This document shows, in pieces, positions 34,160 to 36,851 of a DNA stretch of 64,000 nucleotides (the stretch's first letter is position 1; every line of letters begins with the position of its first letter). The stretch lies in the NCBI RefSeq assembly GCF_000760515.2, contig NW_013546132.1:1-64000 (forward strand), in the 5' to 3' direction. The stretch comes from Mitosporidium daphniae. Lineage: Eukaryota; Microsporidia. The notes beneath the pieces were generated by a model that saw only the letters and a list, made by a program, of their open reading frames with translations, was not told the DNA's origin and ran no database searches. Position numbers and translations under genes: made by a program.

Positions 34160-36851
34160 ATGCCCGCTCCCGTGGACAACTGCGAGATCTGGGATATCTT
34201 CGAGGCAGAAGCAGAGGCTGTCGCCTCTCCCTGCCATGGGACTCCAGAAACTTGCGGCTGGTCCTCAGAAGCAGAGCTTGCTGTCACCTCTACGCGGAAT
34301 TTTCTGCTTTCGAGCCCTGCATGTACGGTTCGTATACACCCATTTCCTGAAGTGCCAAAGCGGCAACGTCTTGACACGAGTTTGACAGAGGATGCCTTTG
34401 ATACAAGCGAGATGCCAGCTTTGCCATCTTTTTCCGAGACATCATCAACCTTTGCTCTGTTTTCCCACAGTCTTTCTTCTGGTAGCTCGTCATTGATGAT
34501 AACAGGAATTGATGGAACATCGAAGACATTCCCACGAAAAAGTAATGCTGCATCTGATGATATGGATTTCGATACGACTGATCGTACAGATCGCAGTATC
34601 CATCAGGCAGTTATTCGCGCTCTTGTCGCACCGACAGCCAGCTCACTTCACACCGATCAAAAAGCAAAACGGTTTGCGAGGCAGAATGTTCGTAGTTCTG
34701 GTGGGCTGTGGAGTCAAATTTTTGCTCCATTAAAGTTCACAGAGCTTGTTACGGCTGATCATGTGAATAAGGAAGTGCTTCAATGGCTCCTTTCGTGGAA
34801 AGAGCGGCATGCCTCGCCAACGGATGGCAAAAAGGTTTGCTTTTTTCATTTCCCACAAGATTCTCATATTACATGGACGTCCTGGCTGTGGAAAAAGCAC
34901 CCTTGTTCGGGTCACTGCAGAGGCCATCGGGTTTTCCCCACTGATCATAAATGCGGCAACAGGCGAAGAAAATGCAGCATCTGTTACGGAAAAGATTACC
35001 ACTGGCCTTACCACGGATTCCCTTGCTCTCACTTCCTTGTCCGGATCAAAGGCCTTTTTGGTGCTTCTGGAAGAACTAGATGCAGCACCTGCCGACATTT
35101 GCAGCGCTATTGTGAACGCTATTATTCGTGTAGTGACAAACGGGCAGCCAGTTCGCCGCCCCATTGTTGTTATATGCGCAGATCCATGGGTGTATACTTT
35201 AAAGCCGCTGAGGGCCGTTGCTCACATGGTTGCTTGCACTGTATCTGTGCCGCGGGCTGCAGAGCGGCTGCAAGAAATTCTTACTGCACAATGCATTGCT
35301 AACCGGGAGCGCCCTCAACTCGAAAAACTCGTCAGCCTTACCGGTGGTGATATCCGTGAATCACTGAATGCCTTACAGTTTGCCGCTATCGAAGTCCAAC
35401 AAGAGACGATATTAGGATTAGATCCTCATGACGCTAGTAAAAAATCCAACGAGAATCCTCGATACAACACCCCAAATTTGGTATCTCGGGCGATTGTATC
35501 GATCACTAGTACTGCATGTGCACCCTCAGCGAGTCTCTATTTTAAGGTGTTTTTGTTGCTTCTATTCTTTTTAGGTCATGGAGGACATCTTTCTGACGCG
35601 AGATCGCCTTGGGCCCCTTTCTGTGGCAACAGGACAAGGCTCTGAACGACAACAATTGTTGAGTCTTCTGTTTCGAAGACTCGAGCTTTTGGGTGACGAT
35701 CTCGAACGCGTTTTTGAAGGCTGCTTCGAAGCGTACCTGCGCTGTGCGTCGTTTGGCAGCGTCATTGGAAACCAACTCGCCAAGGTAACTTTTTCGATCA
35801 TTAATCAATGTGCAGGTAATGTCCTTGTAGCTCTATTTTCTCATAGGTAAGCGTTCTGGTTATTTAGTTTTATTTACCCAGGTGGTCGAGCTAACAGAAT
35901 TGATTGCTTGCAAAGATGTCGGCGATATCCAGCGGGGCCATACAGGCCTCTCTCTGCTTCCAGCAGTTGTGCTGCAGTTTCACATCGGGTTTGGAGGTGG
36001 CATTTCGCTCCGCCTTACGCCAACCATCAGGAGCTCCATCGTAACACTGCCAAAGGCACATCGCGAAGCAACACGCCTTTGTGATGAACGTCAGAGTTCT
36101 ATAAGCTTTTGGCTTCACGAGGGTCATCGGACGGCGCCAAATTCGCTGTCTCTTTTTGCATCGATGGCGGCACGTCGCACTTCCCTTGCGCATGAGGTAA
36201 TGGTACATTGCTCTCATCATACTTAGGTATATATTGTTCTTTGCTATTTTTAGGTACCAGCGGCATTTTGATTGCTAGGTTCTGCCGTTTCTGAGCGCAA
36301 GATTGCGACCACCCGCCTCGCTATTGCTGCCCGGCCGTATCGGCTCAGATGCCTTGACCGAGTTTGCAAGATTTCTGCATGCATATGCACTTACCGTTGA
36401 GCCCGCGATAGACAGTGCCACGATATTGATTCCACAGTATGCGATTGGACTTTACGGTGATAGATTGAAAATTGAGCACAATCTCAATTCATCCATACTG
36501 ACCCTTCTTCCCACCGTTACGAGGATGGTAGAAGAATTTAGGATAAAGCAGCTGGCACTCGCGCGCAACAGAAATTCAGGAGCCTTTCGTGCCATATCAA
36601 GTGCCTTCATTAAGCAAACGCTTGAAGAGCCAATCAAGGAACTCACCAAGGCGATTGGCTCGGCTTCCGAGCCTGTAAAGACCAGGCGGGACTTTTTTGG
36701 GCGACCGATGGCAGAACCCTTGGCAGCTGCGCCAGCGAATGGCTCTACAAAATCGGGCTCGCGTATTACGTTCAAGTTCCAGGAAAAGTCTGCACATGCC
36801 GTCCGACGCAATATCTCTATTTCTCGCCTGATATACAGGCAGCCTTCGTAG
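34160..36851 (+). CDS. CTF18: Alternative clamp-loader subunit CTF18
   Basis: Ctf18-RFC loads PCNA, supports leading-strand polymerase epsilon and sister-chromatid cohesion. There are five exons. A disordered N-terminus of about 180 aa is followed by FTELVTADHVNKEVLQWLLSW (the family's FTELLSDExxNRxVLxWLKxWD box), then after a 25-nt intron (34835-34859) the Walker A ILHGRPGCGKSTL. LVLLEELDAAP is the Walker B region and LTGGDIRESLNALQF the sensor-2 area. A 28-nt intron follows at 35547-35574. Two composite introns (35785-35881 and 36197-36278) interrupt the collar region. The C-terminus TRRDFFGRP and ITFKFQEKSAHAVRRNISI matches the Ctf18 tail that binds Ctf8/Dcc1 and pol epsilon. Reading starts at ATG 34160. 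Confidence 0.9.
35785..35881 (+). other. Composite CTF18 intron: three abutting GT-AG units
   Basis: Exon ends at CTCGCCAAG and resumes at GTGGTCGAG. The 97 bases between divide exactly into 35785-35815 (31 nt, GTAACT...TGCAG), 35816-35846 (31 nt, GTAATG...CATAG) and 35847-35881 (35 nt, GTAAGC...CCCAG). Each unit has intron-sized length and GT/AG ends, and no exon sequence separates them. Confidence 0.75.
36197..36278 (+). other. Composite CTF18 intron: three abutting GT-AG units
   Basis: Exon ends at GCGCATGAG and resumes at GTTCTGCCG. The 82 bases between divide into 36197-36226 (30 nt), 36227-36253 (27 nt) and 36254-36278 (25 nt), each starting GTA and ending TAG. The protein continues as AHE then VLPFLSARLRP, as expected of the Ctf18 collar. 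Confidence 0.75.

Follow-up and report, generated by a model that had tools for sequence, protein, structure and literature searches.

Intron stacks in the CTF18 region

The window, a 64,000-nt stretch of the Mitosporidium daphniae genome, is C136:1-64000 in an assembly of 4.66 Mb and 147 contigs. Its forward strand carries a CTF18-like gene (34160..36851) whose spliced translation of 819 aa contains an AAA domain. The preliminary description had placed a 97-nt intron in CTF18, and the best PDB matches of the 819-aa product are indeed named CTF18. The frame is continuous after removal of 25, 28, 97 and 82 nt. The first of these introns (34835..34859, forward strand) is supported by the spliced translation and by our gene finder. 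The second (35547..35574, forward strand) is supported by the spliced translation; here the gene finder drew a 94-nt intron instead (35481-35574) with an identical 3' end.

The 97-nt intron (35785-35881, stack A) is an end-to-end array of GT-AG units. It divides without remainder into forward-strand segments of 31, 31 and 35 nt (35785..35815, 35816..35846 and 35847..35881), each of which begins with GTAA and ends with AG, and AG|GT is found at both internal borders, as originally described. The third unit has an earlier TAG inside it at 21 nt. A claimed recurrence nearby also holds, since two more forward-strand stacks follow. Stack B (36197-36278) lies in CTF18 and splits its 82 nt into 30, 27 and 25 nt (36197..36226, 36227..36253 and 36254..36278); its support is the reading frame alone. 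Stack C (38026-38081) splits its 56 nt into 27 and 29 nt (38026..38052 and 38053..38081) and lies in the gene next after CTF18, an SNM1/DCLRE1A-like gene starting near 37901. The stack C junction, YFL|SHFHADHYAG, is gap-free against DCLRE1A in a PDB alignment. The gene finder overlooked this stack, and permitting its removal brought no gain. Another place in the window (42404-42469, 36+30 nt) was left uncounted because the frame, checked by hand, is open when the second unit alone is removed.

Removing all 97 nt of stack A keeps the CTF18 frame, as do two smaller excisions. If unit 2 alone (31 nt) is removed and units 1 and 3 are kept, the frame is open and gains 22 aa; if a 46-nt intron (35785-35830) is removed, it is open and gains 17 aa. 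Stack A might then be intron in part, with the remainder encoding an insertion in CTF18. The gene finder favoured the 46-nt version (local gain 0.9 versus 0.0 for removal of 97 nt), and whole-protein HMM scores are alike for the three versions (67.0 versus 66.9 and 66.9 bits). The four homologues that cover this region (P0001-P0004, one of them named Skeletonema), however, align across the junction with no insertion. A partial intron would also leave the other 12 stacks described below unexplained, because those cannot retain any subset of whole units. We consider this reading very improbable. When translated, the exon together with 62 nt of stack A is identical (100%) over 99% of its length to a protein found on 6 contigs (P0126). 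A private assembly error at stack A is disfavoured because this read-through ORF is present on 6 contigs. In a protein database search with the read-through of the CTF18 exon, the match to itself (P0126) was the sole one.

Two other reading frames of the window were recorded. An intronless open frame of 924 aa (54355-57126, forward strand) is ClpB/Hsp104-like, and a database protein present on 15 contigs matches it at 100%; its next relatives among the matches listed are 90% and 77% identical, and viral contigs searched with it reach 50% identity at best. The second (61596-62049, forward strand) includes one ambiguous base, and we take it, by eye, to be RNase H-like.

Single introns as a reference

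Introns outside stacks were characterized in a 304-kb sample made up of the window and 24 stretches of 10 kb. A home-made gene finder was first run without a splice-site model and with introns limited to 250 nt; of its 130 introns, 60 measured 15-34 nt and the remainder were thinly spread. With the cap set to 38 nt, it returned 310 introns with a mode of 28 nt. The 274 introns of 21-38 nt that fall in high-scoring genes average 28.4 nt, in agreement with the earlier statement that introns of the window are mostly short. Of these introns, 79% have A as the third donor base and 82% have T before the terminal AG; YTRAY motifs occur in 40%, versus 20% in shuffled sequences. Among 252 single introns that contain a YAG, 238 have their end at the first YAG at or beyond 20 nt (86% is expected from shuffled sequences). 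A U2 snRNA gene is found at C74:17035-17224 (137 bits).

The gene finder works for short introns and is too weak for long ones. Some of its long introns were rejected because, by eye, each consists of a short intron with coding sequence attached; the genes concerned presumably encode RecQ (L020), asparaginase (L017) and SPT5 (C136:70028-70115). Two long unstacked introns look real. One has 99 nt (L018:8341-8439, reverse strand) and interrupts a cytidylyltransferase-like gene in which a Pfam match spans the junction. The other has 103 nt (L025:8484-8586, forward strand), and its gene, which has no Pfam match, was taken by eye for ELP2. Neither contains a YAG between 20 nt and its end, so both conform to the first-YAG rule. 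In a predicted 112-nt intron elsewhere (L019:4846-4957, forward strand), a 25-nt direct repeat occurs about three times.

Stacks across the genome

Genome-wide searches identified 13 stacks of two to five units each, which comprise 37 units of 24-38 nt, typically about 29 nt, in elements of 50-139 nt. Most are in conserved genes. Three-unit stacks occur in CTF18 (two stacks), CPSF73, RPN10, PLK and TPI, and two-unit stacks in SNM1, CSTF77/RNA14, a CDK-like kinase, COQ5 and the largest subunit of RNA polymerase I. A Mis18-like gene has a five-unit stack, and a four-unit stack interrupts a WD40 gene that we presume to be WDR82/Swd2. At least three units are thus present in 8 of the 13 stacks. 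All 24 internal borders read YAG|GT, part of which the search patterns required. Because these patterns demand strong borders, the 13 stacks are a lower bound and a biased sample in which border strength is partly selected.

Two patterns were used. The strict two-unit pattern (AGGTA-N18,30-TAGGTA-N18,30-TAG) has 18 matches in 14 places, which correspond to 12 stacks, one false match and one place with a possibly coding unit. Spacers of 1, 2, 3 and 6 nt at the border reduce this to 0, 0, 1 and 4 matches, and two of the four spacer-6 matches are repeat-like (C77 and C112). The three-border pattern (AGGTA-N17,32-YAGGTA-N17,32-YAGGT) has 16 matches in 11 places, of which 7 are stacks in context and 4 were rejected; it has no matches with a 1-nt spacer and none with a permuted border. 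Patterns run backwards are not low for either search. The strict form gives 10+16 at spacer 0 and 13+5, 15+25, 13+6 and 10+12 at spacers 1, 2, 3 and 6, and the three-border form gives 4+11, with 7+2 for its 1-nt-spacer form and 2+1 for its permuted-border form. We rely on the spacer controls because the reversed motif is another word (ATGGA-like).

Several candidates were discarded. The first unit at C68:41831 is coding, the C142 match is antisense to an AMP deaminase exon, and that at C68:20795 is, by eye, antisense to a phosphatase-like exon. The C112 and C122 matches are repeats, judging from the printed match. Three two-unit candidates have no protein support: C115:15615-15677 (L047), where unit 2 could be coding, and two on the reverse strand, L014:4202-4270 and L025:396-460.

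Within the 304-kb sample, a search of both strands found three-unit arrays with zero spacers at 2 loci (3 starts), both in CTF18; for the 48 remaining combinations of spacers from 0 to 6 nt the mean is 0.06 starts. Tests for two units were less discriminating. With the gene finder, spacer 0 yielded no signal and spacers 2 and 6 a single weak candidate apiece; model-free forced removal gave 3 at spacer 0 (SNM1 and the L014 and L025 candidates) versus 0 to 3 at spacers 1-9.

The AGGT borders might be chance occurrences within ordinary long introns. Two units do arise from time to time, since in sets of 20,000 random intron-like sequences 158 of those with 56 nt and 139 of those with 66 nt can be split, and false matches are encountered in the genome (4 of 11 places with the three-border pattern; 1 false and 1 ambiguous of 14 with the strict one). 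Longer stacks do not fit this explanation. The number of divisible sequences falls to 2 of 20,000 for three units in 82 nt and to 0 of 20,000 for three units in 97 nt, four in 129 nt and five in 139 nt. The low counts with spacers, set against 18 matches at spacer 0, and the presence of three stacks inside 2.3 kb of the window also argue against it. Chance was judged unlikely when the stack A borders were first noted, and on these numbers we give it next to no credence.

Protein alignments support the junctions that removal of the stacks creates. PDB alignments are gap-free at the junction in TPI, CPSF73, DCLRE1A, Pol I rpa1, PLK and COQ5. The alignments of RNA14 and RPN10 cross the junction too; in RNA14 a gap of two residues lies several positions upstream of it, and in RPN10 there are two one-residue gaps just before it. 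Pfam matches extend across the junction in CSTF77 (Suf), Mis18, CDK and COQ5. The sole anchor for the WD40 gene is a match over residues 4-154 to one WD-repeat chain, presumably of fission-yeast type. In 12 of the 13 stacks any whole unit left in place introduces a stop or a frame shift, the exception being stack A. The stack in the CDK-like kinase is in phase 1 by eye, and a check by hand indicates that no whole unit may stay. This retention test covered whole units; the alternative AG cut known is the 46-nt one at stack A, from the gene finder.

Proposed splicing route and growth of the stacks

The units resemble single introns in most respects. Neither a KS test (p = 0.62) nor a rank test (p = 0.14) separates their lengths from those of single introns. 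The two groups have an equal G+C content of 0.37, and their splice-site profiles agree. In 95% of units A stands at the third donor position, which is in part a consequence of the search patterns. With their GT-AG ends, length and site profile, and with a U2 snRNA in the genome, the units have the attributes of U2-type introns. YTRAY is present in 38% of units versus 21% of shuffled sequences, and by position in 7 of 13 first units, 2 of 11 middle units and 5 of 13 last units. The low frequency in middle units either speaks against their autonomy or is small-number noise.

With a probability of roughly 0.75, we read stack A as three U2-type mini-introns that are separated by zero-length exons and would be removed stepwise by recursive splicing. 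Each AG|GT border would end one unit as its 3' splice site and open the following unit as its 5' splice site. The spliceosome would pick a nearby YAG about 20-38 nt past the 5' splice site, and one unit would leave. Ligation would then set the exon AG before the next GT and so recreate a 5' splice site for another round, until the exon is reached. One border could hardly act as acceptor and donor simultaneously, so removal should be sequential, and any order of removal would yield an identical mRNA. Because introns here mostly end at the first YAG beyond 20 nt, the acceptor of unit 1 should be used first. We infer the stepwise route, the 3' splice-site choice, the sequential occupancy and the mode of growth from these sequence properties.

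Removal in one step is possible and would give the same mRNA. The stacks could be former introns that have fused and are excised at once from the outermost GT to the outermost AG, with the internal borders persisting as skipped relics. The real-looking unstacked introns of 99 and 103 nt fall within the 50-139 nt range of the stacks, which is compatible with such an event. Splice-site choice is harder to reconcile with it. The first-YAG rule is obeyed within 33 of the 37 units and broken in 4, and the outer end is the first YAG beyond 20 nt in 0 of 13 stacks, as follows from how a stack is defined. One-step removal would thus skip the first YAG in 13 of 13 stacks (again by definition), although 238 of 252 single introns use it and both long unstacked introns lack any YAG between 20 nt and their end. 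Unit lengths also remain in the single-intron range, which is unexpected for relics. Fusion with one-step removal therefore appears unlikely, though it is the strongest of the alternatives.

Stepwise removal would be like recursive splicing in Drosophila and mammals, where an acceptor adjoins a donor at AG|GT and the 5' splice site is recreated at each step; a zero-length exon has been reported in rat alpha-tropomyosin (PMC5126111). The stacks contain YAG|GT inside the intervening sequence, which defines a ratchet point, and they lack the long host intron that is typical of recursive splicing without defining it. Human recursive-splicing sets are tabulated in kilobases, and conventional lariats prevailed below 1,000 nt (PMC10156609). 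The stacks, unlike such long introns, span 50-139 nt with at most five units and occur in housekeeping genes, and their stepwise removal is a prediction.

Stwintrons are complex sequences of more than one U2-type intron that would be expected to need consecutive reactions (PMC5639578). Like the stacks, these fungal elements place several U2-type introns in one intervening sequence, but their internal intron splits the donor, branch or acceptor of the external one, whereas the stacks interrupt no signal and have up to five units. The nesting of this kind that had been suggested for stack A does not agree with the finding that 37 of 37 units keep their own GT and AG, with the borders falling between units. 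What stands of the preliminary interpretation is an end-to-end stack with zero-length exons, now seen genome-wide in 13 cases, for which recursive splicing would be the best fit; a stwintron in the strict sense is not supported.

The borders also recall the dual-specific AGGT splice sites of the UBC tandem array, which are used as 5' or 3' sites (PMC10809524). Stack borders could act both ways, likewise in a tandem array, but those of UBC delimit coding ubiquitin units and produce isoforms, whereas 12 of 13 stacks cannot keep any whole unit in the mRNA. Single units fall in the size class of the ultra-short introns of ciliates, which are about 25 nt in Paramecium; the abstract and outline of that paper mention no stacks (PMC5014332). 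Among the matches listed in the open-access literature, outside which most subscription papers lie, there was no report of multi-unit mini-intron stacks.

The stacks may have originated by repeated gain at AG|GT borders or by old tandem duplication. AGGT is a preferred site of intron gain, and reverse splicing has been suggested to favor existing intron positions (PMC3443670). The AGGT motif is common to the stacks and to gain at proto-splice sites by transposon insertion, tandem genomic duplication or reverse splicing. Similarity among units of the same stack falls short of significance (permutation p = 0.083 over 39 pairs), and a DNA search of the genome with the 97-nt element found one match, itself, and no second copy. 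In this search, which covered stack A, the several similar copies that mark an introner were thus not seen. Growth of the stacks is probably due to a preference for AG|GT borders in further intron gain. At least three units are present in 8 of 13 stacks, a hint that existing stacks tend to lengthen, though the patterns favor long stacks. A bolder proposal, to which we give somewhat less than even odds, is that a spliceosome tuned to about 20-38 nt would make rounds of AG|GT ratcheting obligatory and would turn introns into landing sites, so that stack growth is self-propagating.

Three stacks cluster at C136:35.8-38.1 kb, in a window that was chosen for one of them. The CPSF73 three-unit and Mis18-like five-unit stacks lie about 3 kb apart, from C5:11789 to about 14980 (L026 and L027), and regional clustering at C5:11.8-15.0 kb is possible.

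For annotation, it matters that stacks can be misread by gene finders that make no provision for zero-length exons, as happened at 35785. Recursive splicing has been studied mainly for very long introns, and the stacks present the same architecture at the smallest scale. A compact genome of this kind would permit direct tests of 3' splice-site choice. Its stacks would test whether a single border can be used first as acceptor and afterwards as donor, and whether AG|GT is a recurrent site of intron gain.
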